IMG/VR virus record: IMGVR_UViG_3300020156_000014
Location: 1 to 41,801 of that record
Strand: one strand, 5' to 3'
Origin: a virus
Length of the DNA stretch: 41,801 nucleotides
Part shown: piece after piece, positions 10,127 through 30,428 of the stretch
Position numbering within the stretch: position 1 is the first letter of the stretch
Layout: each line of letters begins with the position of its first letter
The notes under the pieces: generated by a model
Told to the model about the DNA's origin: nothing
The model's database searches: none
Seen by the model: only the letters and a program-made list of their open reading frames with translations
Program-made: the position numbers and the translations under genes

Positions 10127-10168
10127 CGGCTACCGTCCTTCGGACTGAGCTTATTCGGTCGATACGAT
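10127..10168 (-). repeat. Two-hairpin dispersed repeat, copy 1
   Basis: Minus-strand orientation. It contains TCG-TATCGAC-CGA, then GTCC-GAA-GGAC, then GGTAGCCG, which touches the start codon at 10126. The second stem holds the ribosome site, so folding could affect translation. Confidence 0.7.
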
Positions 10169-10172
10169 GTCT

Positions 10173-10457
10173 TTATGGAGTGTATTCGTTGGGGTCGAAC
10201 GTGATAAATACATAGATGCCCTCATTCCAACAACGCTTCATTAATTCATCGAGGTCGAGATCATCGAACTTTCCTGTGTAGACGTGTTGTATTTCGCCCA
10301 AAAACTCAGAAATCAAGTTATCAGGTAGATACTCATACTCAAATTCGTCCATCTCTTTGATAATTTCTTTAATGCGTTCAATGTTAGTTACGGAGTCAGT
10401 ATATATTCTCCCCATACCTTTCCTTAAGAATGTCAGCTTTCTTTTTCCGTTATACAT
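10173..10457 (-). CDS. Hypothetical protein, 94 aa
   Basis: A 94-residue protein preceded by TAAGGAGGGATAGAGA. The N-terminus is basic, the middle is acidic and helical (EFEYEYLPDNLISEF, DDLDLDELMKR), and it ends in a short beta-like stretch. No family is recognised. It is co-directional and closely spaced with its neighbours. Confidence 0.65.
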   Translation of the reverse strand: MYNGKRKLTFLRKGMGRIYTDSVTNIERIKEIIKEMDEFEYEYLPDNLISEFLGEIQHVYTGKFDDLDLDELMKRCWNEGIYVFITFDPNEYTP

Positions 10458-10483
10458 TCTCTATCCCTCCTTATAAGTGATCC

Positions 10484-10771
10484 TCAATCAGCATAATCCT
10501 TCAATACTCTTATTGCTCCTTCTAAATCCATGACCATCCATTCAACAAGTTCCATCTTAGATAATGTAATTCCCTTTGGACCGCGAAGCTGTTCAACGTC
10601 TGATTCGAGTATTTTGACTAAACCGCTTATTTCTTTCCTCTGTTCTTCTATAAGGGAAAGGAGACTCTCCATTTGTTCAAATATCTCAGGTAAATCCCTT
10701 CCGTCATAAAAGCCGAGATTCGTTGATTTGTGGTTTTGAATCATTTGTTTTGCGCTTTCTATCCGTTCCAT
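10484..10771 (-). CDS. Hypothetical coiled-coil protein, 95 aa
   Basis: The ATG at 10771 is chosen because AAGGAG lies eight bases upstream. A GTG three codons earlier overlaps that site. The protein is helical with a predicted coiled coil (SLIEEQRKEISGLVKIL). No known domain. Confidence 0.6.
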   Translation of the reverse strand: MERIESAKQMIQNHKSTNLGFYDGRDLPEIFEQMESLLSLIEEQRKEISGLVKILESDVEQLRGPKGITLSKMELVEWMVMDLEGAIRVLKDYAD

Positions 10772-10772
10772 A

Positions 10773-10946
10773 TCATTCACTCCTTATTGCTCTTCTTAGT
10801 TCATTTATTGCGTAGTTAATGCCCCATAGTTGGCCGTTGAGGATGTCTGTGTTTTGGTTGTCTTCAAGTTTCTTTTTGATCGCTTCTTTAGTTGATTCCA
10901 ATTCTTCGAGTACGAGATTGACACTTTCAAATAGGTTATCGTTCAT
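10773..10946 (-). CDS. Hypothetical helical protein, 57 aa
   Basis: A 57-residue minus-strand ORF starting at 10946, after GGAGTGAATAAAAG. Its stop is one base before the next gene's ATG. The sequence is a single amphipathic helical protein (NLVLEELESTKEAIKKKLED). Function unknown. Confidence 0.6.
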   Translation of the reverse strand: MNDNLFESVNLVLEELESTKEAIKKKLEDNQNTDILNGQLWGINYAINELRRAIRSE

Positions 10947-10966
10947 CTTTTATTCACTCCTTACAC

Positions 10967-11176
10967 TTAATCCATTGTTAGTATATAGAAACACACAAAT
11001 CCAGCAGACGAAGATGCGACTATATCATAAAAAAAGTTTCCATTATACTCGTGAACTGGTAGTCCTTTCTTAAATCGGTCTTCATAATACAGCAATAAGC
11101 GAGCCGTCAAACAATACAATGAACGAATCATGCACAGAGAAAATATAATCCATAGTATAATCTTCACTTTATTCAC
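10967..11176 (-). CDS. Small membrane protein, 69 aa
   Basis: GGAGTGAATAAAGTG-type context upstream. Residues 4-25 form a hydrophobic helix (IILWIIFSLCMI), and a second hydrophobic stretch lies at 55-67 (SAGFVCFYIL). It is probably an inner-membrane protein with two segments. Its position in a lysogeny-side operon would fit superinfection exclusion, but that is inference only. Confidence 0.55.
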   Translation of the reverse strand: MNKVKIILWIIFSLCMIRSLYCLTARLLLYYEDRFKKGLPVHEYNGNFFYDIVASSSAGFVCFYILTMD

Positions 11177-11185
11177 TCCTTAACC

Positions 11186-11443
11186 TTATATCTGAACTCG
11201 AATATCATCAATTCCGACAACATAACGCGGCTCTCCGTAATGTTCAATGATTTCTCTAACGGTCATTAAACCTCGGTTCGTCATCGTTTGGAGGGAATCA
11301 TCTACGATCTTTATTGGCTGCCCATGTGCGTCCACTTCGTATAGATCATCCGATGCCAGTTCATACGCTTCTTCCTCGTTATGAGCAATTACAATGTCTT
11401 TTATGTGTTCGTTCCATATGATGGCGTACATATGTAATTTCAT
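11186..11443 (-). CDS. Hypothetical protein, 85 aa
   Basis: An 85-residue soluble alpha/beta protein (MYAIIWNEHIKDIVIAHNEEEAYELA) with no recognised motif. A second ATG four codons in is possible. It sits just downstream of the Cro/CI-type gene and is probably co-transcribed with it. Confidence 0.6.
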   Translation of the reverse strand: MKLHMYAIIWNEHIKDIVIAHNEEEAYELASDDLYEVDAHGQPIKIVDDSLQTMTNRGLMTVREIIEHYGEPRYVVGIDDIRVQI

Positions 11444-11445
11444 TT

Positions 11446-11646
11446 CTACGCATTCTCCTTCCCCAACAAATAATCAGTACTTACTCCGAACAATTCTGCA
11501 ATCTGCATTAGGCGCTCATAATTCGGTTCCGTCTCACGTTCCCACGCATTCACGTTTACTCTTGTTGTGTCCAGTCTATCAGCTAGTTCGTACTGTGACC
11601 ATCCTTGGGCTTTACGTAGCTGTTTAAGGCGATGGTGAAAGGTCAT
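11446..11646 (-). CDS. XRE-family HTH regulator, 66 aa
   Basis: A compact Cro/CI helix-turn-helix protein: residues 6-60 contain RLKQLRKAQGWSQYELADRL, TTRVNVNAWERE and the closing FGVSTDYLLG. It is first in the minus-strand operon 11646-9929 and follows AGGAGG. The operon's own long leader suggests it controls accessory genes rather than the main lysogeny switch at 15 kb. Confidence 0.85.
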   Translation of the reverse strand: MTFHHRLKQLRKAQGWSQYELADRLDTTRVNVNAWERETEPNYERLMQIAELFGVSTDYLLGKENA

Positions 11647-11715
11647 AATTCCTCCTAGATAAAAATTTTATCTGTGCAAGTATTTTTTAACCGCTCCATT
11701 ACAGAGCGGATAGAT

Positions 11716-11759
11716 ATACGGCTATCGTCTACGCCTAAGATGATTCGGTCGTTCCGAAG
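11716..11759 (-). repeat. Two-hairpin dispersed repeat, copy 2
   Basis: Minus-strand orientation: TTCG-GAACGAC-CGAA, a variable segment with CGT-AGA-CG, then ATAGCCGTAT. It lies about 70 bases before the XRE start at 11646. Confidence 0.65.
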
Positions 11760-11912
11760 GATTAGTTTATGTGCGGTTTTGTGGCATTACTGCTTGACCA
11801 TCCCATTTAAGGGTTCACCATAACCGCAAAGGCGCGTTTTCCAGTGACGGAATGCCCTTACTGACTCTCGCTCACACAACGGGCTCATCGTGTGACTGTC
11901 GATCATTTAAGT

Positions 11913-11972
11913 ATGATGTGGTCCCGCGCGCAAGTAACCGAAGAGGTTTCCGCTATCGACACACCACATCAT
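11913..11972. other. 60-bp inverted-repeat site, candidate attP
   Basis: ATGATGTGGT (11913-11922) and ACCACATCAT (11963-11972) are perfect 10-bp arms around a 40-bp imperfectly symmetric centre. Serine-integrase attP sites are about 50 bp, have inverted-repeat arms and usually lie next to the integrase gene, here at 12066. No direct proof is possible without the host junctions. A structured RNA hairpin is the alternative. Confidence 0.35.
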
Positions 11973-11979
11973 ATAGATA

Positions 11980-11988
11980 ATTATACCA
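11980..11988 (-). promoter_or_regulatory. Extended -10 promoter of the minus-strand accessory operon
   Basis: On the minus strand TGGTATAAT is a perfect TATAAT with a TG extension. A TTGTAC lies 20 bases upstream, too far for a standard -35. Transcription would run through the structured leader into 11646-9929. Confidence 0.6.
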
Positions 11989-12065
11989 TATATTTCAATT
12001 TGCTTGTACAATATTTTTCATTTAATTTGTGCTTCGTCTTTCCGATCCACAATAAAAATGAAACA

Positions 12066-13487
12066 TTATTCAAGCATATTCCACTGAATAACGGGATCTT
12101 CTCCCTTTTTCAGTATAACTTTACTTACCGCTTTGCGGATCATTATTTTTTGTTCTTCTTCTGTTGCGAAGTCCCATACCTCGCCAATCTCACGAATGAC
12201 GTAATACACTTGGTGAGGTTCTTTGAATACAGGTGTCGTGTCCACAAGATCATCGAGCTGCTTCATTATCATTTCTCGTTCTTCTTCAAGTCTGCTAATC
12301 CGCGACCCAACGGCTGAGACTTTGACTGTTCCCGTTTCAATCGCCTCATAAAGATTTTCTAAACCTGTGTTAACCTTATCGAGTTTCGATTTGACCGCAT
12401 CCAATAATGAATGGTCGGGAGATTCGTTTTTCTTCTTTTTAATGATTTCATGGATAGCTTTAGGTTGAGAAGTGATTCGTTTAATTTGGTTGATGACGTA
12501 TTTCTCAACTTCATCGCGCCGAACGTAACCCATTGAGCAAGTATTGTATTTATCTTTCGCTCGTACATGCTGATTTCTACACGCATACAATTCATATAGG
12601 TACTCACTGTTAGCGGTGGTTTTCTTCCGTTTAACGTGGACCACGTTTCCACCGCATACGGCACATTCGACTAATCCGGTGAGCAGATATTCTCCCACTG
12701 GCGATAAACCTTCTTTTCTTCGACTAATCTCTTTTTGCACAGCGTACCAGGTGTCATCGTCGATGATTTCTTTATGATTTCCATCAACAAGGGAACCGGC
12801 ATTCATCAATTTGCCATTGTACACTGGCCTGCTTAACATGTCTCGAATAACGGCATGATCGAATACCCGCGAATTAGTTCGAGTTACAACCCATTCCGCA
12901 ATAGCAAGCCTTGACCAACCTTGGAGATACTTTTTAAATATTTCCTTAACAAAGTAAGCTTCTTCCTCTACGACTTCAAGAGATTTATTTTCTTTGTCCC
13001 ACGTGTACCCGAATGGCACGCGACCGCCATACCAATTCCCTTTGCTGACATTTTGCCTGCGTCCTGATGTGGTGCGTTCAACGATCATATCACGCTCTAG
13101 TTGGGCGAATACAGCTAACATACCTATCGTGGCTTTACCAAATGCTGAGGTTGTATCAAAAGGCTCTGTGCTGGATCTGAATGCGACTCCATGTTTTTCG
13201 AATACATCTTCAAGTAAATACAAAACGTCCTTCTGTTTACGACTCAGTCGGTCTAGTTTATATACGAGGACAAGATCATGCTGCTTATCTTCGATATGTC
13301 GAATCATCCTAGACATAGCAGGGCGGTCTATATTCGTTCCTGTATATCCATCATCGACGTATAGTTTGAAGTCGTTCCATCCCTGAGAGGTGCAGTAGGC
13401 GACAAGACGTTCTTTTTGCATATCAATGGACGTACCGTCTGTTGCTTGGTCATCCGTACTTACGCGAACGTAAATTGCAACGCGCAT
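12066..13487 (-). CDS. int: Large serine recombinase (integrase)
   Basis: This 473-residue protein catalyses site-specific integration and excision. The N-terminal resolvase domain (about 1-150) has catalytic Ser10 in YVRVSTDD and the family segments DGYTGTNIDRP, YKLDRLSRKQ and LERDMIVERT. A recombinase domain (about 160-270, GRVPFGY, SRPVYNG) follows. Then come a zinc ribbon (about 285-335, CAVCGG ... C ... C) and a C-terminal coiled coil. Length and domains are those of phage-type large serine integrases such as those of A118 and phiC31. It starts at ATG 13487 after TAGGAGGTACACC. A separate directionality factor was not identified. Confidence 0.95.
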   Translation of the reverse strand: MRVAIYVRVSTDDQATDGTSIDMQKERLVAYCTSQGWNDFKLYVDDGYTGTNIDRPAMSRMIRHIEDKQHDLVLVYKLDRLSRKQKDVLYLLEDVFEKHGVAFRSSTEPFDTTSAFGKATIGMLAVFAQLERDMIVERTTSGRRQNVSKGNWYGGRVPFGYTWDKENKSLEVVEEEAYFVKEIFKKYLQGWSRLAIAEWVVTRTNSRVFDHAVIRDMLSRPVYNGKLMNAGSLVDGNHKEIIDDDTWYAVQKEISRRKEGLSPVGEYLLTGLVECAVCGGNVVHVKRKKTTANSEYLYELYACRNQHVRAKDKYNTCSMGYVRRDEVEKYVINQIKRITSQPKAIHEIIKKKKNESPDHSLLDAVKSKLDKVNTGLENLYEAIETGTVKVSAVGSRISRLEEEREMIMKQLDDLVDTTPVFKEPHQVYYVIREIGEVWDFATEEEQKIMIRKAVSKVILKKGEDPVIQWNMLE

Positions 13488-13504
13488 GGTGTACCTCCTA
13501 AAAG

Positions 13505-13523
13505 AAAAACCCCGAAGGGCTTA
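13505..13523 (-). terminator. Terminator after the EF-hand membrane gene
   Basis: On the minus strand AAGCCC-TTCG-GGGTTT is followed by TTCTTTT. It overlaps the stop codon at 13521 and insulates the integrase from the upstream gene. Confidence 0.6.
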
Positions 13524-13907
13524 TTTGCGTTTCAAGAATGTAATGATAATTGCCGTTATGCAAACCATGCCAAATACAACATAGAACGAGTAATCCAGAT
13601 GATAGTAGTGATTCGTTTCGTATGTATTTTCCGTTTTGTTTGCAGCTCTCACAGACGGTTCAGAACTATCGGAAAGTATGTATTCCTTATATTCGTGGTA
13701 GCTGATTTTACCGTTGTTATCGCTGTCTGCTTTAACGCGATCTTCGCCGCTCGAAAGAACATTCCAGAAATCGTCCGATTCCCTTGCTTTATCGAATTTA
13801 GTTTGTTCATCCTCGCGATATCGGTCTAATATACTCCCATTGGATATGGCTTCTCGTTCGTCGGCATATTTGCTTAATACTTCATCAGGTTTTGGAAGAT
13901 TGGACAT
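13521..13907 (-). CDS. EF-hand protein with C-terminal membrane anchor
   Basis: 128 residues from ATG 13907 (GGGGTG upstream); a start four codons earlier lacks a ribosome site. Residues 61-72 (DSDNNGKISYHE) fit the 12-residue EF-hand loop, with Asp61, Asp63, Asn65, Lys67 at the backbone position and Glu72. Residues about 106-124 form one membrane helix followed by KRK. A calcium-binding, tail-anchored protein is unusual on a phage. It sits alone between the integrase and the regulatory block, so a lysogenic role (exclusion, sporulation or envelope effect) is possible. A single EF-hand might be structural rather than a sensor. Confidence 0.7.
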   Translation of the reverse strand: MSNLPKPDEVLSKYADEREAISNGSILDRYREDEQTKFDKARESDDFWNVLSSGEDRVKADSDNNGKISYHEYKEYILSDSSEPSVRAANKTENTYETNHYYHLDYSFYVVFGMVCITAIIITFLKRK

Positions 13908-13919
13908 AACACACCCCAA

Positions 13920-14057
13920 ATGATTATTTAGTCCTAAGAAAATAGTAAATTTAACCTATATAAATCTTTACACCCTATGTCGAACTATGTAATATTGTAA
14001 CCAACGGTTCAATTTATGCATATTGCCAGTGGTTTCCATAGTAAATTATCAGAATTT
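13920..14057. other. AT-rich divergent intergenic region
   Basis: This region lies between the EF-hand gene (leftward) and the riboswitch transcript (rightward). It is AT-rich with several TA-rich -10-like stretches, but no element I can assign with confidence apart from the riboswitch promoter just to the right. Confidence 0.4.
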
Positions 14058-14066
14058 TGCTATAAT
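14058..14066 (+). promoter_or_regulatory. Extended -10 promoter of the riboswitch RNA
   Basis: TGCTATAAT combines a perfect -10 (TATAAT 14061-14066) with a TG extension. The predicted start near 14073 is just upstream of the aptamer. No good -35 is seen. Confidence 0.7.
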
Positions 14067-14079
14067 GTGGGGACAAATC

Positions 14080-14182
14080 GATAAAGGCACAACCGAGGAA
14101 ACTCGGTGTCGCAAAACTAAGGGGCTAATGATCACCTAGAAACTCAACATGATAATCTATGCCAGCCAGTTACCGTATGCCG
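14080..14182 (+). ncRNA. Cyclic di-GMP-I (GEMM-I) riboswitch aptamer
   Basis: GGCACAACC leads into a helix ACCGAG-GAAA-CTCGGT with a GAAA tetraloop. TGTCGCAAAACTAAG follows, then a long second helix returning through CTATGCCAGCC and GTTACCG. The tetraloop together with the receptor halves CTAAG and TATG, the xCGCAAAx joint and the closing GCCAGCC..TTACCG match class I c-di-GMP aptamers. GEMM-I aptamers are established in Firmicutes and in some C. difficile phages. The GTCGCAAAA segment differs slightly from the usual GACGCAAAG. A terminator follows at once, with no colinear gene close by. Confidence 0.8.
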
Positions 14183-14193
14183 TTGGTTATCTT

Positions 14194-14218
14194 CCACCTC
14201 GACAGGTGGTTTTTTTTG
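14194..14218 (+). terminator. Riboswitch expression-platform terminator
   Basis: CCACCT-CGAC-AGGTGG is followed by eight T residues (14210-14217). It sits about 12 bases after the aptamer and is the likely output: early stop or read-through toward 14.3-14.8 kb depending on c-di-GMP. Confidence 0.85.
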
Positions 14219-14233
14219 TCTATATTTTTAGTC

Positions 14234-14308
14234 AATGGAGTAAGTCACTCGGCTTACTGACCCGTTTCAGAGTAGAAAATCTTACTCTGAGTTAGTGCCG
14301 ACTCCATG
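14234..14308. other. Cloverleaf-like inverted-repeat structure
   Basis: ATGGAGT and ACTCCAT close a structure of about 75 bases that contains two inner hairpins: AGTAAG with CTTACT, and CAGAGTA with TACTCTG. It is not a tRNA because no T-arm or anticodon arm can be placed. It lies directly after the stop of the minus-strand XRE gene and downstream of the riboswitch terminator. It may stabilise or end transcripts from either side. Confidence 0.5.
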
Positions 14309-14310
14309 CG

Positions 14311-14523
14311 TTACTCTTCTTCATATTCATATAAATCTTCTATAGGAATACCGAAGAAATCTGCTACATTCTTAGCTGTTTTGAGCGACATGACTTTACG
14401 AAAGCTGGAATAGTCGTAAACCTGTTGTTTAGGCATTCCGAACTTTTCTGCAAATTCTGTCGCCGTTAATTTATTTTCACGCAATATATGGGGGAGTCGG
14501 CAGCGTACGGGACGCAATGCCAT
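14311..14523 (-). CDS. XRE-family HTH regulator, 70 aa
   Basis: A 70-residue Cro/CI-like helix-turn-helix protein: HILRENKLTATEFAEKFGMP (recognition region about 12-36), SFRKVMSLKTAKNVADFFGIP and IEDLYEYEEE. GGGGGTAACAC precedes ATG 14523. Its gene is read opposite to, and would be overlapped by, any read-through RNA from the upstream c-di-GMP riboswitch. It is probably a second lysogeny regulator. Confidence 0.8.
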   Translation of the reverse strand: MALRPVRCRLPHILRENKLTATEFAEKFGMPKQQVYDYSSFRKVMSLKTAKNVADFFGIPIEDLYEYEEE

Positions 14524-14581
14524 GTGTTACCCCCACGAACTATTGATGTTTACATATTCTTGATACAGTTTGGCAAGTTGA

Positions 14582-14601
14582 ATACGAACCGATGTTCGTA
14601 T
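14582..14601. promoter_or_regulatory. LexA/DinR (SOS) box in a promoter
   Basis: ATACGAACCGATGTTCGTAT is a perfect 8-4-8 palindrome with the core CGAAC-N4-GTTCG, the Firmicute LexA consensus. On the plus strand TTGAAT (14578-14583), 17 bases, and TAAACT (14601-14606) form a promoter with the box filling the spacer. LexA would therefore block rightward transcription until DNA damage. Confidence 0.65.
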
Positions 14602-14659
14602 AAACTATAGACATCATGAATGAGCGGCTGCTTAATTCTGACAACTGGACGGTGCAAGG

Positions 14660-14785
14660 ATGGAAACAGAAACAATCAAAAAGCTAAAAGAAAAGATGGA
14701 AACTATTAAAGGATTGGAGGGTAAAGATTCTCATAATATGTACATTCTTATCGTTTCTTTGTATAGTCAGCTAAAACAATCTTAA
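14660..14785 (+). CDS. Possible small SOS-controlled protein, 41 aa
   Basis: A 41-residue ORF (starts METETIKKLKEKM) lies downstream of the SOS-box promoter. It overlaps the 3' end of the convergent repressor gene by 38 bases. The ribosome site is poor (AAGG abuts the ATG). It has a faint likeness to short Spo0E-type helical proteins. The transcript itself, as repressor antisense, may be what matters. Confidence 0.35.
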   Translation: METETIKKLKEKMETIKGLEGKDSHNMYILIVSLYSQLKQS

Positions 14786-15095
14786 TTAAATCTTCTAATT
14801 TTTCACGTTGACCAGGTATAGTTAAATCTAAATTATAGTCTTGTACGATCTCACGGATAATGAAATCTGTTTCATTTGGGGTGAGGTCTTTGTATGTAGT
14901 AGTATCTCTTCCTAATAAGTAATCAATAGTTACTTCATGAAAATCAGCTATTTTTCTTATTGTGTCTGGGTCAGGGTCTCGTGATCCGTTTTCATATCCA
15001 GAATAGGTAGTCCTCGCCATTCCTAACCTTTTCGAGATTTCCCCTTGTGTCATTTTCTTTTGTTCCCTCAAAGCTTTTAGACGAGATTTCAACAT
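14748..15095 (-). CDS. CI-like lysogeny repressor, 115 aa
   Basis: Start at ATG 15095 (GGGTGGTG upstream); an ORF extension upstream lacks a ribosome site and runs toward the operators. Residues 1-65 are an XRE helix-turn-helix (LKALREQKKMTQGEISKRLG, ARTTYSGYENGSRDPDPDTI, FHEVTIDYLLGRD). The C-terminal half is helical and probably mediates dimers. There is no LexA/CI-type self-cleavage domain, so SOS induction cannot work by autoproteolysis. It is divergent from a cro-like gene, with operators between. It should repress the early promoter at 15188. Confidence 0.88.
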   Translation of the reverse strand: MLKSRLKALREQKKMTQGEISKRLGMARTTYSGYENGSRDPDPDTIRKIADFHEVTIDYLLGRDTTTYKDLTPNETDFIIREIVQDYNLDLTIPGQREKLEDLIKIVLADYTKKR

Positions 15096-15130
15096 AATTA
15101 CACCACCCTTCACAAATCGCGTCACTCTTC

Positions 15131-15136
15131 ATTATA
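15131..15136 (-). promoter_or_regulatory. Repressor promoter -10
   Basis: Minus-strand TATAAT with a poor -35 (TTTTAT, 15154-15159) at 17 bases. Operator O1 fills the spacer. This is a weak maintenance-type promoter that could be autoregulated. Confidence 0.6.
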
Positions 15137-15137
15137 A

Positions 15138-15154
15138 CGACGCAAAACGAATCA
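15138..15154. promoter_or_regulatory. Operator O1
   Basis: CGACGCAAAACGAATCA, a variant of the 17-bp consensus TGACGCAAAACGAGTCA, lying in the repressor promoter spacer. Confidence 0.7.
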
Positions 15155-15163
15155 TAAAATAAT

Positions 15164-15180
15164 TTACGCAAAACTCGTCA
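15164..15180. promoter_or_regulatory. Operator O2
   Basis: TTACGCAAAACTCGTCA is a second variant of the operator, between the two divergent promoters and 26 bases from O1. Confidence 0.7.
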
Positions 15181-15187
15181 TTATGTA

Positions 15188-15216
15188 TTGACATGACGCA
15201 AAACGAGTCATATAAT
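15188..15216 (+). promoter_or_regulatory. Early rightward promoter (consensus), with operator O3 in its spacer
   Basis: TTGACA at 15188-15193, exactly 17 bases, TATAAT at 15211-15216: a perfect sigma-A promoter. The 17-base spacer (15194-15210) is exactly one full operator, TGACGCAAAACGAGTCA. Bound repressor would therefore exclude RNA polymerase. It drives the cro-like gene and the early operon. Confidence 0.92.
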
Positions 15217-15228
15217 CAAATTACAGAT

Positions 15229-15245
15229 TGACGCAAAACGAGTCA
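15229..15245. promoter_or_regulatory. Operator O4
   Basis: A second perfect copy of TGACGCAAAACGAGTCA, just after the predicted transcription start and directly before the AAAGGAGG ribosome site of the cro-like gene. Confidence 0.8.
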
Positions 15246-15260
15246 AAGGAGGTTGATTGA

Positions 15261-15482
15261 ATGAGACACTGGCTTTTACAGTTCCGCAAAGCAAAGGGAC
15301 TTACTCAAAAAGAAGTTGCTTGCATAGCCGGTATATCTCGAAGCTACTACGCCGATATTGAGCAAGGTTCTAAAGGCGCAAGCGGCAGAGCTGCAAAAAG
15401 AATTTCCGTTGCATTAGATTTTCCAATGGATCTTTTTTTTGCAGATGATGGACGCAAAACGAGTCAAAACAAATCAGCATAA
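15261..15482 (+). CDS. Cro-like XRE regulator, 73 aa
   Basis: First gene of the early operon, with AAAGGAGGTTGATTGA before ATG. Residues 4-60 are a Cro/CI helix-turn-helix (FRKAKGLTQKEVACIAGISR, YYADIEQGSKGASGRAAKRI). It should compete with the repressor for the operators at 15138-15245. The coding sequence itself contains operator O5 near its 3' end, whose codons read GRKTSQ. Confidence 0.85.
   Translation: MRHWLLQFRKAKGLTQKEVACIAGISRSYYADIEQGSKGASGRAAKRISVALDFPMDLFFADDGRKTSQNKSA
15450..15466. promoter_or_regulatory. Intragenic operator O5
   Basis: GGACGCAAAACGAGTCA has 16 of 17 matches to the operator consensus. It lies inside the cro-like gene, 33 bases before the antirepressor start, where a bound repressor could block elongation into the antirepressor. 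Confidence 0.65.
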
Positions 15483-16487: not shown

Positions 16488-16634
16488 ATGAATGTCAATA
16501 TCTTCTACAAACAAAGACAGGATTCTACGGCTTCCGCTATCGCTAAGCATATTCAGTCGGTTGATGGCGCAAGCGCAAAACAAAAGGAGCGAAATAGCAA
16601 TGACAGTCAAAGAGTTCTTAGAGTCAACGTTTGA
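16488..16634 (+). CDS. Doubtful small ORF, 48 aa
   Basis: This ORF (starts MNVNIFYKQRQDS) covers the 157-base gap before 16600 and overlaps the next gene in another frame. No ribosome site is visible. It is listed because the gap holds nothing else. Confidence 0.2.
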   Translation: MNVNIFYKQRQDSTASAIAKHIQSVDGASAKQKERNSNDSQRVLRVNV

Positions 16635-16947
16635 CCCGGAAAACCCATATCAAGTTAGAGATAGAGTTACTTGTCACGATGGTTACTCTATTTCAATTCA
16701 AGGCGGAACAGTCGGTCATTATTGTTCTCCACGTCAACATGTTAATGAATACGAGCAAGTAGAGCTTGGATACCCTTCGACAGCCGATGATGAATTAATT
16801 GAATACGCAGAGGACGGTAGCGACTTAACTGGCACAGTCTACGGATATGTCCCGATTGAAGTCATTGAGTCCATTATCGCTAAACATGGCGGGATAGTGG
16901 ATTTTTCGCAAGACTTCGAGCCGACCGAACAAACCCAAGCCGAATAA
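16600..16947 (+). CDS. Hypothetical protein, 115 aa
   Basis: Start at ATG 16600 after AAAGGAGCG; a frame extension to 16492 lacks a ribosome site. An acidic alpha/beta protein with no known motif. Its last codons overlap a copy of the dispersed repeat and encode FEPTEQTQAE; the 25583 gene ends similarly (LIDPTESV) for the same reason. Confidence 0.65.
   Translation: MTVKEFLESTFDPENPYQVRDRVTCHDGYSISIQGGTVGHYCSPRQHVNEYEQVELGYPSTADDELIEYAEDGSDLTGTVYGYVPIEVIESIIAKHGGIVDFSQDFEPTEQTQAE
16915..16942 (+). repeat. Two-hairpin dispersed repeat, copy 3 (short form)
   Basis: TTCG-AGCCGAC-CGAA, then CAAACCCAAGCCG without the second hairpin. It overlaps the 3' end of the 16600 gene and leads to the AAGGAG site of the next gene. 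Confidence 0.6.
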
Positions 16948-21275: not shown

Positions 21276-21329
21276 GCGGCTTGCCGCCATCGGTTCGACC
21301 GAATCACCCAGCGATAGCGGCAGCCGTAT
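21276..21329 (+). repeat. Two-hairpin dispersed repeat, copy 4
   Basis: It begins with GCGGC-TT-GCCGC, then TCGG-TTCGA-CCGA, a short AGCGATAGC segment, and GGCAGCCGTATA. A second palindromic run (ATACCGG) follows before the AAGGAGG of the 21390 gene. Confidence 0.7.
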
Positions 21330-22596: not shown

Positions 22597-22643
22597 ACGG
22601 CTACCGAGCCTAAAGGCTCTAAGCTATTCGGTCGAATCGAAGC
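22597..22643 (-). repeat. Two-hairpin dispersed repeat, copy 5
   Basis: Minus-strand orientation: TTCG-ATTCGAC-CGAA, TA, then GAGCC-TTTA-GGCTC and GGTAGCCGTAT. It lies downstream of the minus-strand RHH gene's terminator and faces away from the flanking plus-strand genes. Confidence 0.75.
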
Positions 22644-25094: not shown

Positions 25095-25282
25095 AAGAAC
25101 CGAAGCGATATACATGCAAGGATTGCGGACATAAAAGTTCAAGACGCAAAGTTGTATGGATTGGACAATGCGGTGTTGCTAGATGTACAAAGTGCTCTGG
25201 AATCCTGAAAGAAAGCGATGAATGGACAATGTGGAACAACAAGAAGTTGGACGAATGGAGATTTGCTGCAACAAGGATTTAA
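25091..25282 (+). CDS. Zinc-ribbon protein, 63 aa
   Basis: ATG overlaps the previous stop. CKDCG ... CTKCSG form a classic four-Cys zinc ribbon around a basic beta strand (SSRRKVVWIGQCG). The tail is helical. Possible nucleic-acid or partner binding. Confidence 0.65.
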   Translation: MKEPKRYTCKDCGHKSSRRKVVWIGQCGVARCTKCSGILKESDEWTMWNNKKLDEWRFAATRI

Positions 25283-25283
25283 T

Positions 25284-25328
25284 GCGGCATAGCCGCCACC
25301 GATCCGACCGAATAAATCCCAAGCCGTA
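25284..25328 (+). repeat. Two-hairpin dispersed repeat, copy 6 (short form)
   Basis: GCGGC-ATA-GCCGC, then GATCCGACCGAATAAATCCC and AAGCCGTAGGAGG. The second hairpin is missing, as in copy 3. The repeat's end runs straight into the ribosome site of the 25339 gene. Confidence 0.7.
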
Positions 25329-25338
25329 GGAGGACGTT

Positions 25339-25506
25339 ATGATACTCAAACACATCAAAATCGAACAACCACCCATCATCAAGAAATCCATATCCGACTA
25401 TCCCTTAGAAGATCAAATCAGATGGGCAAATGTAAAACCGTATAAACCCGTAAAAACCATGGAAATCGAAACAACAGCAGCGAAATCAAAACGTAAGGGA
25501 GCTTAA
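25339..25506 (+). CDS. Hypothetical basic protein, 55 aa
   Basis: TAGGAGGACGTT precedes ATG. Lys/Pro-rich with Ile-rich N-terminus (KHIKIEQPPIIKKSI). It is bracketed by two copies of the dispersed repeat, in opposite orientations. Function unknown. Confidence 0.55.
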   Translation: MILKHIKIEQPPIIKKSISDYPLEDQIRWANVKPYKPVKTMEIETTAAKSKRKGA

Positions 25507-25508
25507 TC

Positions 25509-25549
25509 TACGGCTACCGTTTCACTAATCGTATTCGGTCGAGTCGAAG
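25509..25549 (-). repeat. Two-hairpin dispersed repeat, copy 7
   Basis: Minus-strand orientation: TTCG-ACTCGAC-CGAA, then TACGATTAGTGAAA and CGGTAGCCGTAG. The second stem is weak. It lies 33 bases before the 25583 start, facing away from it. Confidence 0.65.
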
Positions 25550-25582
25550 CTTTTAAAACCAAAATCAAAGGAGAAATGCAAG

Positions 25583-26023
25583 ATGAGAGAGGTTAAGTTC
25601 AGAGCATGGGATAAGAAACGTAAGGATATGCGTGATGTGAAATTAATGGATTGGGCGGAATGGTGGGTTAGTACAGATAACACCTACGGAAAATCGAAAC
25701 CATTGGAATTTGGAGAACGAAACAGCTTCAAGAACGAGGAAACTGACCGTCATATCCTCATGCAATACACCGGACTCAAAGATAAGAACGGCAAGGAGAT
25801 TTATGAGGGGGATATCATACAGTGCCCCAAATACTATGAGACACCTGAATATGGCTACAATCCGATTGAATTAGCAGGGCATGTAGTCTTTGAGGAAGGT
25901 GCATGGAGACTGTCGGAAGGTAGTTATCTTCACAATGAGCATGAGTCATATGGTGGAGATCTTGAAGTAATCGGCAACATCTACGAGAACCCCGAACTCA
26001 TCGACCCGACCGAATCCGTTTAA
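25583..26023 (+). CDS. YopX-family protein, 146 aa
   Basis: AAAGGAGAAATGCAAG precedes ATG. Starts with the family motif REVKFRAWDK and continues with MQYTGLKDKNGKEIYEGDI and IGNIYENPEL, as in YopX of SPbeta. These proteins are common in Firmicute phages; their function is unknown. Its last codons lie in repeat copy 8. Confidence 0.9.
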   Translation: MREVKFRAWDKKRKDMRDVKLMDWAEWWVSTDNTYGKSKPLEFGERNSFKNEETDRHILMQYTGLKDKNGKEIYEGDIIQCPKYYETPEYGYNPIELAGHVVFEEGAWRLSEGSYLHNEHESYGGDLEVIGNIYENPELIDPTESV

Positions 26024-26041
26024 CCCGAAGGGTGGAAGCCG
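26000..26041 (+). repeat. Two-hairpin dispersed repeat, copy 8
   Basis: TCG-ACCCGAC-CGA, then ACCC-GAA-GGGT and GGAAGCCG, followed immediately by the ATG at 26042. The second stem contains the ribosome site GGGTGG. The copy overlaps the YopX stop codon. Confidence 0.7.
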
Positions 26042-26296
26042 ATGAAGAAAAGAACCATAAGTCCATACGCTCAAAACCTATTTACATCAGGTAGAGGAGA
26101 ACACCTAATAAAACTCTTTATACAAGAACTCATACTTTCTAAACGTATTCCAGACCATCGAGTAAGCAAGAAGGAATTACAAGCTAAACATAGGGAGAAG
26201 GTGAAGCAAAGTGATTCAGTTCACGGTTTTCGGAAATCCGCAAGCACAAGGCAGACCGAGAGGGGCAATACAGAACGGCAAAGTACGAATGTATGA
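26042..26296 (+). CDS. Hypothetical basic protein, 84 aa
   Basis: ATG directly after repeat copy 8. A basic helical protein in its first 55 residues. The last 30 overlap rusA by 86 bases in another frame and are low-complexity (STRQTERGNTERQ). Function unknown. Confidence 0.5.
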   Translation: MKKRTISPYAQNLFTSGRGEHLIKLFIQELILSKRIPDHRVSKKELQAKHREKVKQSDSVHGFRKSASTRQTERGNTERQSTNV

Positions 26297-26624
26297 CCCG
26301 ACCGACTCAAAGAACTATAAGCAGTATGTGGGCATGATCGCATCCCAACACCGTCCAAAAGAATTGATAGAGTCAGCGGTATCGCTCACGGTGAAAGTAT
26401 ACCGACCCATTCCAAAGCTGAGTAAAGCCAAACATCGGCAAGCCGTAGAAGGGATTCTAAGACCCAAGAGCAAGCCTGACCTATCCAACTACATAAAGGG
26501 CGTTGAAGACGCGATAGAGGGCATACTGCTCAAGAATGACAGCCAAGTAGTGGACTATGGCGAAAGTGGAAAGTGGTACAGCGATACGCCGAGGATAGAA
26601 ATTATTTTACGAGAGGTGGGATAG
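26211..26624 (+). CDS. rusA: RusA-like Holliday junction resolvase
   Basis: 137 residues from GTG 26211. The RusA fold signatures are visible: FTVFGNPQAQGRPR at the N-terminus, VKVYRPIPK, KPDLSNYIKGVEDAIEGIL with the acidic metal-binding residues (Asp in KPDLSN and in VEDAIEG), and NDSQVVDY. It cuts four-way junctions made during RecT-type recombination and replication. The ribosome site is modest, and the start lies inside the previous gene. Confidence 0.88.
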   Translation: MIQFTVFGNPQAQGRPRGAIQNGKVRMYDPTDSKNYKQYVGMIASQHRPKELIESAVSLTVKVYRPIPKLSKAKHRQAVEGILRPKSKPDLSNYIKGVEDAIEGILLKNDSQVVDYGESGKWYSDTPRIEIILREVG

Positions 26625-26625
26625 C

Positions 26626-26841
26626 ATGAATGCCAGCAATCCAAAACCGTTAATTACTGTTTACTGGACGGAAAACGGTGAACAAAAGAAACAAGACTAT
26701 TACGAAATGACCGGAACAGCAGGAGCAGAAGCGGCGATACTCAGATTAAAGCAAAACGGCGCATACTTTCATTGGGTTGAACACTTCCCGAAACAAGATC
26801 AAGCCTACGGAACAGACTGCCGTGGAGGATGTGACATATGA
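26626..26841 (+). CDS. Hypothetical protein, 71 aa
   Basis: GAGAGGTGGGATAGC precedes ATG, one base after rusA. Small alpha/beta protein with aromatic strands (LITVYWTENGEQKKQDYY). The stop overlaps the next ATG. Confidence 0.6.
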   Translation: MNASNPKPLITVYWTENGEQKKQDYYEMTGTAGAEAAILRLKQNGAYFHWVEHFPKQDQAYGTDCRGGCDI

Positions 26842-26933
26842 GTTACAAAGCCAAAGCATGGACATTGATGTTTGGTATCTGTCTCGTATTTTGGTACATG
26901 GTAGGAACTCTAATATGGGCGGTGGTGAGGTGA
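26838..26933 (+). CDS. Small membrane peptide, 31 aa
   Basis: ATG overlaps the previous stop (ATGA) with TGGAGGATG upstream. One membrane helix (WTLMFGICLVFWYMVGTLIW). The stop overlaps the next GTG. Coupling on both sides supports it. Confidence 0.5.
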   Translation: MSYKAKAWTLMFGICLVFWYMVGTLIWAVVR

Positions 26934-27211
26934 ATCTATCCCAACTCATTCAACTCAGAATGTATGCCAAAGAGAGTCCGCACAAGGTCATAAGCAAAGA
27001 GACGTTCCTAGAAGTCGTAGACAGCCATATAAAGGCGATTAGTGGTACAGATGAACAATCTATCCACCCAGTAATAAAAATGTCCTACAGCGAACGTCAG
27101 GAGCTTAAAAGTGGCATTGAACAGATCAGGCGACCACCACTTGACCACCAAGCACACGCCGAACAGGTTAGAAAAATTTACGATCAGGCTATGAACTATA
27201 AAACGTCTTAA
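26930..27211 (+). CDS. Hypothetical protein, 93 aa
   Basis: GTG 26930 overlaps the previous stop (GTGA) and follows GGTGGTGAG. A helical protein (LIQLRMYAKESPHKVISKET, HAEQVRKIYDQAMN). No recognised family. Confidence 0.55.
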   Translation: MNLSQLIQLRMYAKESPHKVISKETFLEVVDSHIKAISGTDEQSIHPVIKMSYSERQELKSGIEQIRRPPLDHQAHAEQVRKIYDQAMNYKTS

Positions 27212-27235
27212 TTTTTATATATCTAGTGCGAAAAT

Positions 27236-27266
27236 TGCTGATTCTTGCTAGATATTGTGTTAAAAT
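27236..27266 (+). promoter_or_regulatory. Possible promoter before the coiled-coil gene
   Basis: TGTTAAAAT is an extended -10, with TTGCTG 20 bases farther upstream. It lies in the largest gap of this operon segment (27212-27335) and could start a middle transcript. Confidence 0.35.
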
Positions 27267-27335
27267 GTAGATACCCAACCTTATAACATAACATACTGAA
27301 TAGAAAATTGTCGAATCGAAGGGAGAATAGAAAAC

Positions 27336-28457
27336 GTGAGTAAACTAGAGGAAAACCGAGCAGAACTTGAAAAAGTTCGGGAAGAAATGAGAAAGCTTAA
27401 CCGCAACAACAAAGACGAAGCAGAAGCATTCGCTGAACTCAAAGAACTGGAAGATGCACTCATTGACGAGATTCAGCGTTTACAGGCCGAGGAAACCGTT
27501 GAGGAAAAAAAAGAGCAAATCAGCGAGGAAGTATCTGAAAAGGTACTCCGCAGGAATTACAACGCACTCTTTGAAGACCCCGAAGCGAACAAACTCATTC
27601 ATGGCGACATGATGGAGCAAGCATTGGGGTATGAGAAAACCATCGCCGCCAAGGATGATAAAATCCAGACGCTGACGAAGCAAGGTATGGAAACTGAGAA
27701 CCAATTAGCAGAACTCCGTGACCAATTCGCCAAACTTCAAACAGAAGCTGACCAACTCCGCGCCGATAATACTCAACTCAACGAGCACATCGGCACATTG
27801 AACGCTGCGATCATGAACAAGGACGCACAGGTCCAGCAGCTTCAAGAACGGTTAGATGATGAAATCAAAGAGTCCCGTTTCTATCGCAACGAATCGGCAC
27901 GACTGACGCTGCAAAACCAGCAACAACAATCCGAACTTGACGCATTACGGAGCCAAAAGAAAGAATTCACTCGCAATGAAAGCCTGGACGATCTCGCAGC
28001 ACGAATTGCAGAGCGTTCCGCACACAAGAAAAAACAACTCGCCAACGTTCGTACGAATACAGATGGATCAATCACAGGTATCAATGCAGAAGGGAGCGAA
28101 GAGACCGTACCATGGTATGCAGTAAAATCCGTGGAAGCGGTTGAGTCCTTTCCCGAACCTCCTGAAATCATTATCGAGGAAGTTGAGGAGTCTTCTGTTG
28201 ATCCGGTAGCGGAAGAAACCTTTCACCAAGAAGAAGCTGAAACCATCGGACATACTGAACGAGCCGTGGAAGAGGAAAACGGACGAGATCCACAACCGAA
28301 TGTGGGAACGGTGGCAACGCAAACTTGGGAACAATGGATGAACACCAGCGTCCTAAAACTTGCAGAGGAAATCGGCGTAGAGATCGGTGAACCGCCAACA
28401 CAGACGAGCTTTGCAAGTGCGAAGACTGATAAATTATTCGAGCTGAAAGCTAGTTAG
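27336..28457 (+). CDS. Long coiled-coil protein, 373 aa
   Basis: GTG start with GAAGGGAG upstream. Residues 1-60 and about 95-215 are long coiled coils rich in Glu, Gln and Lys. Residues about 235-260 form a short beta-like patch (TDGSITGINAEGSEETVPWY), and the rest is acidic and Pro-rich. No catalytic motif. It is the largest unassigned gene of the early region and may be a scaffold or regulator. Confidence 0.6.
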   Translation: MSKLEENRAELEKVREEMRKLNRNNKDEAEAFAELKELEDALIDEIQRLQAEETVEEKKEQISEEVSEKVLRRNYNALFEDPEANKLIHGDMMEQALGYEKTIAAKDDKIQTLTKQGMETENQLAELRDQFAKLQTEADQLRADNTQLNEHIGTLNAAIMNKDAQVQQLQERLDDEIKESRFYRNESARLTLQNQQQQSELDALRSQKKEFTRNESLDDLAARIAERSAHKKKQLANVRTNTDGSITGINAEGSEETVPWYAVKSVEAVESFPEPPEIIIEEVEESSVDPVAEETFHQEEAETIGHTERAVEEENGRDPQPNVGTVATQTWEQWMNTSVLKLAEEIGVEIGEPPTQTSFASAKTDKLFELKAS

Positions 28458-28470
28458 GGGGATGATGTAG

Positions 28471-28614
28471 ATGTTTGCAGGGTGCGAAACATGCAGATAC
28501 GATTCGGGAGATAAAGAATCGTATGAAGAGCTTGCCGAGAAAGTAAAGGCTGACGGTGGGGACCTAGCAAAGTTCAAGTGTCCAAATGGGCATGAAGACT
28601 TGCACATAGACTAA
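28471..28614 (+). CDS. Small zinc-ribbon protein, 47 aa
   Basis: GGGGGATGATGTAG precedes ATG. CETC ... CPNGH gives a CxxC/CxxxH site. Acidic middle. Function unknown. Confidence 0.55.
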   Translation: MFAGCETCRYDSGDKESYEELAEKVKADGGDLAKFKCPNGHEDLHID

Positions 28615-28617
28615 CCC

Positions 28618-28660
28618 TTCGATGCGACCGAATCACACAGCAACGGAGTTGCGGAAGCCG
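28618..28660 (+). repeat. Two-hairpin dispersed repeat, copy 9
   Basis: TTCG-ATGCGAC-CGAA, TCACACA, then GCAAC-GGA-GTTGC and GGAAGCCG. The five-base second stem differs entirely from the other copies but still pairs. Confidence 0.75.
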
Positions 28661-28789
28661 ACAATAATTAAACTAGCACTATGTATAGAGTGTGGGGATA
28701 AGCTTTATCTAGGTGATGAACCTATTAAGCACCCCATACTCTGTAAACGATGTAGGGGAAGTGAGAAGAATGGAAAGGCGAGTCATTAA
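28622..28789 (+). CDS. Possible zinc-ribbon protein, 55 aa
   Basis: ATG 28622 lies inside repeat copy 9. It gives a 55-residue frame with CIECG ... CKRC (four-Cys ribbon). No ribosome site before that ATG; a TTG at 28649 after GGAG would give a shorter form. The Cys pattern makes the frame credible although the start is uncertain. Confidence 0.4.
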   Translation: MRPNHTATELRKPTIIKLALCIECGDKLYLGDEPIKHPILCKRCRGSEKNGKASH

Positions 28790-28991
28790 GACAATATTGA
28801 TTGAAGTTGATGATATACACCCAGATGATTTCGACCCAGAGGAAATGGTATCGGTAGAGGATATTATATACTCCGAATTGCGGAAACTTGGATGGGACAA
28901 TGCGAAAGTGGACGTGTTGTCAACCAAAGAACCACCGACACTAGGAGACAAGCTAAGGGACGATTTCATAAAAGCATGGAAATGTAGATAG
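28770..28991 (+). CDS. Hypothetical acidic protein, 73 aa
   Basis: ATG 28770 after AGGGGAAGTGAG. Begins with a beta strand (VIKTILIEVDDI), then acidic helix-forming sequence. No known family. Confidence 0.6.
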   Translation: MERRVIKTILIEVDDIHPDDFDPEEMVSVEDIIYSELRKLGWDNAKVDVLSTKEPPTLGDKLRDDFIKAWKCR

Positions 28992-29017
28992 GATGCGCAG
29001 GGAAAGGAGAGAAGCGA

Positions 29018-29449
29018 ATGGACAGAAACAAAGTCACTGAGCTATTAAAGAACTACCCGTACTACAAATACGCGGTAAGGCAGTACGAGAAGCACCAACG
29101 TACTCCTGTAGCGGCAGTAGCCAGTTATGACGATATGCCGCGTTCATCCTCATTCGGGTCCAAGATGCCGACTATGAGCGATGGAATCAGCTTGCAGGAC
29201 ATAGCAGACTATCTCGCATACAAACACACTGTAGACGAGATTGAAGGGGCGCTAGACGTACTGACTGAGGACGAACGAGCGGTGATTGAACTCAAATGGA
29301 TTCGCAACGTGACTCTCCGAAAGATTGAGGAACGGCGGTTCATGGGTAGAGACTACGCCAAGAAGATCCACCGTAGAGCCTTGGAAAAGCTGGCGATTTG
29401 CCTGAGATTCACTGATGTTCCCGAAATCGAGATCATCATTGTTGCATGA
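29018..29449 (+). CDS. ArpU/sigma-region-4-like late transcription regulator
   Basis: 143 residues after GAAAGGAGAGAAGCG. The C-terminal half follows sigma-70 region 4 and ArpU/RinA-type late activators: ALDVLTEDERAVIELKWIRN, VTLRKIEERRFMGRDYAKKI, HRRALEKLAI. Position as the last early gene just before the packaging module is typical of these activators, which turn on late transcription. Confidence 0.78.
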   Translation: MDRNKVTELLKNYPYYKYAVRQYEKHQRTPVAAVASYDDMPRSSSFGSKMPTMSDGISLQDIADYLAYKHTVDEIEGALDVLTEDERAVIELKWIRNVTLRKIEERRFMGRDYAKKIHRRALEKLAICLRFTDVPEIEIIIVA

Positions 29450-29464
29450 TATCCCCTTTTTATC

Positions 29465-29514
29465 CCCACAACCCTGTTATTATGAAATTGTGGGAACGTT
29501 CAACGAAGCTTCGT
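29465..29514. promoter_or_regulatory. Inverted repeats upstream of the late genes
   Basis: CCCACAA (29465-29471) faces TTGTGGG (29488-29494) around a TTATTAT -10-like core. Directly after it lies the palindrome ACGAAGCTTCGT (29503-29514). Location between the late regulator and the packaging genes suggests a late promoter or activator site; a packaging site is the alternative. Confidence 0.4.
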
Positions 29515-29640
29515 AATGAATCCCAATTGAGCGTACACTTAGCACCCAAAAAGATAAGTCTGACCTCTTCGGTCGGGTGAAGGATCGGGGTATACCGGTC
29601 GGCTAGGTGGTACGCCAACTAAACTATGAATGCCAAAGAA
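29515..29640. other. Non-coding GC-richer stretch before the late genes
   Basis: No credible ORF. It contains GACC-TCTTC-GGTC and the palindrome GGTATACC, plus one degenerate half copy (reverse) of the dispersed repeat near 29565. It could be a leader, a packaging site, or both. Confidence 0.35.
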
Positions 29641-29663
29641 AAGCATCCTTCGGGGTGCTTTTT
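29641..29663 (+). terminator. Intrinsic terminator, TTCG loop
   Basis: AAGCATCC-TTCG-GGGTGCTT followed by a T tract. It separates the early operon, including the late regulator, from the late region, so late transcription must start after it or read through. Confidence 0.8.
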
Positions 29664-29686
29664 GCATTGAGTTAGGCGGTGAAAGG

Positions 29687-29905
29687 ATGGACTACAACCT
29701 CCGAGACATAGACAATCACATTTACGCATACATGCAGAGGACCTATAACGGATTCAAGAGCATCAAAGAGACTGGCGCAGGACTAAACGCAGTCAAAGGG
29801 ATACGAGACATATCCTTTCGATGCCAAAAGCAAGACTACTCTTATTGTGAACTATGGGTGTATTACCACATCGAGAGTGGAGATATTCAGGTGGAACAGA
29901 GGTGA
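29687..29905 (+). CDS. Hypothetical protein, 72 aa
   Basis: ATG 29687 chosen because the longer frame runs through the terminator. A small alpha/beta protein (RDIDNHIYAYMQRTYN, YCELWVYYHIESGDIQ). No known family. Confidence 0.55.
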   Translation: MDYNLRDIDNHIYAYMQRTYNGFKSIKETGAGLNAVKGIRDISFRCQKQDYSYCELWVYYHIESGDIQVEQR

Positions 29906-29911
29906 GAGGGA

Positions 29912-30043
29912 ATGAATTGGTTTAAACGTATCCTCCATGATCACAAATGGAATCTTGTTAACTCACGTTTGATAGATTGCGGAAGGAACAAGATGTTTTA
30001 CTATGAATGCTCGTGTGGTGCCAAGAAAGCGAGGACGCTATGA
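29912..30043 (+). CDS. Hypothetical Cys-containing protein, 43 aa
   Basis: GGTGAGAGGGA precedes ATG. Contains C...YYECSCGAKK, a CxC with another Cys before it, and is basic. The stop overlaps the next ATG. Confidence 0.5.
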   Translation: MNWFKRILHDHKWNLVNSRLIDCGRNKMFYYECSCGAKKARTL

Positions 30044-30372
30044 AACCATATGTTTGGCAGGATGGAATAAGTTCAGAGGAAGCTAAGAACGGCGCATATT
30101 GGGAGCGAAACATGTTGGCACTTATGCTTGCAAAACTCACTAACGAAAAAATGACGGTATGGGAGAACTCGTATCGTAGTGGATGGTATTATCATGGCGA
30201 GTGGGATGGATGGAGCAGAGTAATCAGTATAAACCGCGGACAAATCACATTTCATGTGCCCGATGATTTTGATTTAGGAAACCTGCCGCAGATAACCCCG
30301 AATTGGGACGGACATACCACAGAAGAAAAGTGGCGAAGAGTTGCCGAAATATGCGGAGTAATTTTGGATTAG
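30040..30372 (+). CDS. Hypothetical protein, 110 aa
   Basis: ATG 30040 overlaps the previous stop (ATGA). A Trp-rich alpha/beta protein (SGWYYHGEWDGWSRVISINR) with no recognised family. The stop runs into repeat copy 10. Confidence 0.6.
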   Translation: MKPYVWQDGISSEEAKNGAYWERNMLALMLAKLTNEKMTVWENSYRSGWYYHGEWDGWSRVISINRGQITFHVPDDFDLGNLPQITPNWDGHTTEEKWRRVAEICGVILD

Positions 30373-30428
30373 GCGCAACGCGCCATCGAAACGACCGAAA
30401 TACTTAGCGCGTAGCGCGGAAGCCGTAT
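30372..30428 (+). repeat. Two-hairpin dispersed repeat, copy 10
   Basis: GGCGC-AAC-GCGCC, then TCG-AAACGAC-CGA, TACTTA, GCGC-GTA-GCGC and GGAAGCCGTAT. It is the last copy; none is seen in the head and tail genes. Confidence 0.75.

Follow-up and report, generated by a model that had tools for sequence, protein, structure and literature searches.

Which kind of element is repeated among the accessory and early genes of a phage, and does it act as RNA, as a mobile repeat or as folded DNA? The question is raised by the virus record IMGVR_UViG_3300020156_000014, whose 41,801 nt are called the window here, with coordinates counted from position 1. An original prediction, made from this sequence, listed ten copies of a two-hairpin element and proposed a phage-specific regulatory RNA or a mobile or recombination-promoting unit. 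A covariance model of the kind it called for was built and searched, and about 285 distinct copies were found, all of them in phages and prophages of the Paenibacillales. The element is not previously described. Among the explanations weighed below we favour, tentatively, a new family of structured extragenic DNA elements, which are located at gene boundaries of Paenibacillales phages and most likely work as a folded single strand in gene exchange or in connection with it.

Structure and distribution of the element

The element comprises 45 to 60 letters and is composed of an optional GC-rich hairpin (P1), the core TCGANN-CGACCGAA, a covarying hairpin (P3) and a terminal RGCCG. P1 is present in 216 of 285 copies and is followed by [A/T], then by [TC]CG[A..]NN and CGACCGAA, whose eight positions are each conserved to 91-100%. 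Past the core there are a few bases, YYA, the first P3 strand, the loop, the second P3 strand, GG, one further base and [AG]GCCG; the 3′ end is AT-rich, near TATAAGG. Short forms without P3 account for 39 copies. The YY facing GG appears as CC, CT, TC or TT, which results in G-T pairs on the element strand, and this strand is therefore probably the one that folds. In the original prediction TTCG and CGAA were regarded as a first pairing stem. As not a single compensating change backs this stem, the block is treated here as conserved sequence. Two folds showed P1 paired over a long range with the 3′ portion; this pairing was dismissed, since it is not generally kept by P1 hairpins of the GCGC type.

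The P3 helix is 97% paired in an alignment of 150 copies, with pair counts of GC 104 and AU 22 at one position and CG 100, UA 19 and GC 3 at the other. The structure covariation score was 0.275 compared to 0.168 for shuffled alignments, none of 500 shuffles scored as high, and the covariation was lost when the P3 partner was shifted by one to three columns; the alignment had been fitted to the model and hence leans towards it. The P3 stems can also be read directly from the sequences (GC/GC, AC/GT, GT/AC, GTCC/GGAC and ATCCC/GGGAT), and at one orthologous locus a compensatory change, AC/GT versus AT/AT, is visible. The covariation of the variable stem, as predicted, is thus strongly proven by the alignment of relatives and modestly within the window alone, where P3 stems exceed those of shuffled sequences with a sum of 31 versus 24.0 (P = 0.01).

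For the first family scan viral contigs were searched with the core and the 3′ motif, and 25 contigs were obtained, most of which clearly carry the same element. The covariance model (R1) was then built from 14 copies and run over the fetched loci, and duplicates were removed. Carriers harbor between one and 16 copies. The element is accordingly common to many phages of one bacterial order (Paenibacillus-type bacteria) rather than specific to one phage. At E <= 1e-4 it was detected in 54 of the 395 host-order genomes, and a class-wide sample contained six carriers among 399 genomes, all six already in the order list. As a control, 44 loci were fetched solely by similarity to RecT or RusA of the window; copies were present in one of them, a known carrier. 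Pattern matches in bacterial genomes (n = 76) were mostly due to chance, and the real ones belonged to Paenibacillaceae only. When a consensus of 56 nt was compared by blastn with the records of phages and plasmids, chance matches only were obtained. No relatives were found among named phages for regions from two carriers, and Rfam 15 gave no family match to the element at E <= 1.

Copies within one genome are no more alike than copies from different phages (61.7% versus 61.0% identity), and none of 425 within-genome pairs reached 90% identity. The element is therefore not an amplified repeat, and this idea was ruled out. A related explanation is that a HUH transposase of the host mobilizes the element in trans as a REP- or MITE-like repeat, and that genes between inverted copies travel with it. 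The intergenic position, the occurrence in both orientations, the inverted pairs and a bulged hairpin with a conserved single-stranded motif as in REPs (PMC8266576) would be in line with it. We nevertheless consider it quite improbable, as near-identical copies, a GTAG or CGTC tag and a Y1 transposase in the 17 phages are missing, and orthologous copies keep their pairing by compensatory change, unlike decaying insertions. Of the predicted mobile or recombination-promoting unit, the part that stood is that genes are exchanged at the element; an amplifying mobile repeat it is not.

The loops point to folded DNA. Triloops of the type GNA were found in 213 of 265 unique hairpins, and among the tetraloops GNYA outnumbers GNRA by 63 to 10 (P = 2e-10, uncorrected for shared descent); further loop types are GNAB and CNNG. 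RNA hairpins would prefer GNRA tetraloops. In the definition of Hirao and colleagues, a hyperstable DNA mini-hairpin has two or more G-C pairs capped by a GNA or GNNA loop (PMC4686876), and the commonest P3, GC-GAA-GC, corresponds to the published mini-hairpin d(GCGAAGC) (PMC4686876). Moreover, antisense copies (n = 35) are as well conserved as sense copies (n = 137), with 0.94 versus 1.19 core mismatches per copy and P3 in 74% versus 69%. Because of the intact antisense copies and the DNA-like loops the predicted regulatory RNA is now the weaker alternative. A structured intercistronic RNA acting in the messenger (processing, stability, coupling or antitermination) would suit the covarying hairpins, the sense orientation of 80% of the copies and the position of P1 next to the stop codon with the outer end ahead of the next ribosome-binding site. 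It has to be regarded as unlikely in view of the equally conserved antisense copies, the avoidance of GNRA, the lack of an Rfam match and the near absence of U-runs, which follow P1 in none and the whole element in two of 275 copies. For the latter reason the copies are not intrinsic terminators either.

Gene boundaries, cargo and exchange

The usual site of the element is the gap between codirectional genes, with P1 most often beginning at the stop codon. Where both neighbours were called, 89 copies were in sense orientation (P1 at the stop codon, outer end before the next start), 24 showed the exact reverse and seven another arrangement. Copies less than 700 bases apart formed 22 pairs with the cores directed inward, eight outward and seven parallel pairs; 10.7 inward pairs were expected, and none of 5000 orientation shuffles within contigs reached 22. 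Inward pairs enclose a single gene, which core and P1 face; its start codon mostly lies 60-85 bases in from the outer limit of the 5′ copy, and its stop at or within the 3′ copy. The cargo comprises about 25 different genes, including those for YopX, a C5 methylase, a radical SAM protein, a Mom-like protein, a 115-aa protein of the window and small unknown proteins.

In several carriers, for example L142, L168, L188, L211 and the window (16600-16947), genes reading into the element share a terminal peptide, PKAIE-x-TE or one of its variants, for the most part in one and the same frame. This peptide is a possible C-terminal tag. Such a tag (PKAIETTE from P1 and core) is real in some genes; it was rejected as a general explanation, because changes in P3 length break the frame and protein coding is therefore not the main constraint on the element.

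Comparison of loci revealed that genes on either side of a copy are exchanged between phages, with the copy and the flank beyond it retained. In one genome (L142/L143) both flanks are common and the genes between them differ. In six phages (L255, L261, L263, L268, L274 and L023) the outer half, from CGACCGAA into the following gene as far as its first codons, is common, and the upstream genes differ, save for L263 and L268, which are related. The same element and leader precede two methylases, a gene similar to PAPS reductase and a small protein (L216, L155, L156 and L164); a leader hairpin, GGGGAGTTTCGGCTCCCC, is located in these four loci about 30-90 bases past the element, before the start codons of the unrelated genes. 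Two prophage stretches of G721 (L358/L359) have flanks with 99.7% identity and differ between the elements, and the break is at NN|(C/T)GACCGAA, identity returning at the base preceding GACCGAA. In two phages a radical SAM block spans from element to element. L263 contains an inserted gene that separates a terminator from an element, the two being directly adjacent in L023, and in L012 an element occupies the place of an HNH homing-type gene of L178.

Since the shape of the element is that of folding single-stranded DNA and one gene is often flanked by it on both sides, it may be a route by which single genes are swapped. The region would become single-stranded during replication, recombination or DNA entry, whereupon P1 and P3 could fold into compact hairpins and the conserved core between them would be left exposed. 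In this state it might anneal with the core of a second copy or be joined to it after cutting, and a gene would thereby be replaced and its neighbours left unharmed. General single-strand annealing proteins of the RecT or ERF type, or a host factor, would be the likeliest actors. A more far-reaching form, a phage gene-cassette system in which accessory genes are traded at folded single-stranded DNA sites in the manner of an integron, with unrelated sites and no integron integrase, is possible though doubtful.

Several observations weigh against a dedicated role in exchange. The break points are spread over the element, with 17 at the edge of CGACCGAA, 18 in P3, 14 in P1, eight in TCGANN and two left of P1, a tally based on 59 non-independent pairs; breaks occur at NN|CGACCGAA in several contexts and elsewhere in others, and further ones were located at ribosome-binding sites. 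Compared to random positions, the ends of homology blocks show only a 1.6-fold higher frequency of lying near an element. A search for empty sites yielded no clean site with target duplication, the useful pairs being L263/L023 and L012/L178, and the bias of 80% towards the sense orientation would equally suit an RNA function. Ordinary recombination over short stretches of homology could account for the exchanges, in which case the element might be no more than a homology patch. Because the breaks are spread and ribosome-binding sites are break points as well, site-specific recombination is not claimed, and a single site-specific break point was not upheld.

Another explanation is a neutral by-product, in which the conserved core, P1 and RGCCG are homology patches devoid of any dedicated function and kept by frequent phage recombination. 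The spread of the breaks, which also fall at ribosome-binding sites and repeated terminators, fits such a by-product; the compensatory changes in P3 and the loop rules require selection on structure, and the conservation in both orientations and across unrelated phages speaks against it as well, which makes it very improbable.

Other conserved blocks were noticed in the compared loci. A second repeated module, a terminator with GTTGCTCTTTTTGTTTT(ATAAATAT), is found in L022 (3680-3720), L025 (3100-3530), L178 and L263 and acts as another exchange point; the gene inserted in L025 compared to L022 brings its own copy of the module's terminator. About 100 identical intergenic bases (GGGGAAGTTGATCGGGGAGCTCCCGGCGTACCCAAGAGAGAGCGATACGTAACTACGC...) are located downstream of genes with about 70% identity in L208 (~6640-6800), L030 (~700-810) and L016 (~3150-3260), and this strongly conserved noncoding block is perhaps an RNA. 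A further conserved block before a gene, AGCATCCCGTAATCTAAACC.GAAACACCGAG.GGTGACGGTAAAGTAAGGTACACGGGAGA (L257 6320-6400, L237 2070-2140 and L179 2546-2620), looks like a structured leader.

With respect to acting proteins, RecT was found in four and ERF in seven of 17 phages, together 11, which fits a role of single-strand annealing and does not prove it; no single annealing protein is common to all 17. Tyrosine recombinases (PF00589) occur in five phages and are absent from 12. As the integrase class varies among carriers (large serine in 13 of 17, tyrosine only in four of 17), a phage integrase was ruled out as common mover, and a phage-borne Y1 (HUH) transposase was rejected with no instance in the 17 phage records.

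The 16 compared carriers share no specific protein except for a small helix-turn-helix family, a generic one. It bears on the idea of a dispersed operator, in which the duplex core TCGANNCGACCGAA is bound at many sites by a repressor of the phage or a protein of the nucleoid type, like the stoperators of mycobacteriophages or the SPbeta repeated element (SPBRE) with MrpR. Besides this family, the only one in all 16 phages, the near invariance of CGACCGAA, its occurrence in both orientations within early and accessory regions and the proven precedent of SPBRE (PMC10516654) support an operator. We rate it as rather unlikely, since it leaves the two covarying hairpins, the DNA-type loops, the position at stop codons and the inward pairs unexplained.

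Widespread, placed at gene ends, built for folding as a single DNA strand and present at the borders of swapped genes, the element offers a testable handle on the long-standing question of how temperate phages swap single genes cleanly. It also marks exchangeable cargo, e.g., Mom-like modification genes and those for DNA methylases, and should it work in trans, cassettes could be exchanged with it as a tool.

Copies in the window

All ten predicted copies exist, and their true number is 11, including a diverged copy on the minus strand (16528-16576). A scan with TCGANNCGACCGAA allowing one mismatch resulted in ten matches and none for the reversed pattern; with two mismatches 16 matches were obtained compared to 4.35 +/- 1.90 in shuffled sequences, and none of 100 shuffles reached 16. 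The pattern TTCG-N3-CGAC-CGAA, which was thought to be shared by all copies, is complete in five of the ten, the others starting with ATCG or ACCG.

Copy 1 (10127-10169, minus strand) carries the core and P3 GTCC-GAA-GGAC and ends at the ATG (10126) of the minus-strand open reading frame (ORF) 9929-10126. Copy 2 (11719-11759, minus) has the core TCGGAACGACCGAA and an imperfect P3. The diverged copy 3 (16528-16576, minus), with P1 GCGC-TT-GCGC, a core with CGACTGAA and P3 GC-GATA-GC, forms the 5′ antisense end of the two-ended unit A. The gene of this unit (16600-16947, plus) encodes 115 aa without a Pfam match, and its last ten residues, FEPTEQTQAE, are encoded by the element, namely by copy 4 (16914-16942, plus), a short form without P3 (CAAACCCAAGCCG) within the 3′ end of the gene. 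Copy 5 (21276-21326, plus; 66.8 bits) is composed of P1 GCGG-CTTG-CCGC, the core and P3 GC-GATA-GC. Copy 6 (22598-22642, minus) has the core TCGATTCGACCGAA and P3 GAGCC-TTTA-GGCTC, and copy 7 (25284-25326, plus) P1 GCGGC-ATA-GCCGC and the core in a short form without P3 (TAAATCCCAAGCCG).

The second two-ended unit, B, begins with copy 8 (25511-25549, minus; core TCGACTCGACCGAA, P3 GT-GAA-AC) as 5′ antisense end. Its gene (25583-26023, plus) encodes a YopX family protein (PF09643, E 6e-28), the final residues of which are encoded by the element; copy 9 (25999-26041, plus; core TCGACCCGACCGAA, P3 ACCC-GAA-GGGT) ends at the ATG at 26042. Copy 10 (28617-28660, plus) contains the core TCGATGCGACCGAA and P3 GCAAC-GGA-GTTGC; a relative (L017) shares its 3′ flank and differs in the hairpin and in the end of the upstream gene. 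In copy 11 (30372-30425, plus) P1 GGCGC-AAC-GCGCC starts from the last base of the stop codon and is followed by the core and P3 GCGC-GTA-GCGC.

The variable hairpin had been assigned to every copy. The stems GAGCC/GGCTC, GTCC/GGAC, GCGC/GCGC, GCAAC/GTTGC and ACCC/GGGT, as well as GC/GC in two copies and GT/AC, were found; the hairpin is missing at 16914 and 25284, and the stem at 11719 is imperfect. A 5′ GC hairpin is carried by four copies (16528, 21276, 25284 and 30372) instead of three, and three copies (16528, 22598 and 25511) are antisense to plus-strand neighbours, 22598 being also downstream of a minus-strand ORF. That two copies end exactly at an ATG was confirmed (10126, minus; 26042, plus). 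A site similar to CGACCGAA with two mismatches lies on the minus strand at 29568-29581 in a GC-rich intergenic region (29541-29620) and is not an element copy according to the model. The sole Rfam match, elsewhere in the window, is a c-di-GMP-I riboswitch (14076-14177, plus; 66.7 bits, E 5e-11), which is located between the integrase region and the early phage genes.

Comparison with known systems

The start-associated sequences of cluster K mycobacteriophages (SAS/ESAS) are repeated intergenic sequences, half of them with variably spaced inverted repeats, and are mostly found in one orientation (PMC3203893). Like the element, they place a conserved repeat in many accessory gaps of one phage. 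The sequences are unrelated, as had been predicted (GGGATAGGAGCCC with up to two mismatches gave no match), and SAS are located at starts with 17 bp inverted repeats, whereas the element is found mostly at stops. For the put RNAs of HK022, the other parallel set aside in the prediction, the evidence is the lack of an Rfam match. SPBRE, a motif of 15 bp within promoter regions, is bound by the repressor MrpR (PMC10516654). SPBRE and stoperators share with the element the dispersed conserved intergenic site, for SPBRE in a Bacillales prophage; structured flanks like those of the element are not described for SPBRE (PMC10516654).

REP, REPIN and BIME sequences with their RAYT proteins resemble the element in form, being extragenic bulged hairpins with a conserved unpaired motif and inverted pairs, and in these systems the folded single strand is recognised (PMC8266576, PMC3733652). 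In contrast, the GTAG tag is present in three and the CGTC tag in none of 213 element copies, Y1 transposases (0/17 phage records) and near-identical copies (0/425 pairs at 90%) are absent, and pairs of the element enclose single genes.

The attC sites of integrons differ in that their R″ and R′ boxes (GTTRRRY and RYYYAAC) occur in none of 285 element copies, an integron integrase is lacking and 12 of 17 phages are devoid of any tyrosine recombinase. Furthermore, attC sites are directly oriented, whereas the element is commonly found in inverted pairs, and P1 and P3 are separate hairpins instead of one long palindrome. Nevertheless, both are located at the 3′ end of single-gene cassettes and keep their structure while the sequence varies, and the conserved fold with an unpaired base, the diverse copies per array and the gene exchange between sites that characterize attC (PMC2727003) have their likeness in the element.

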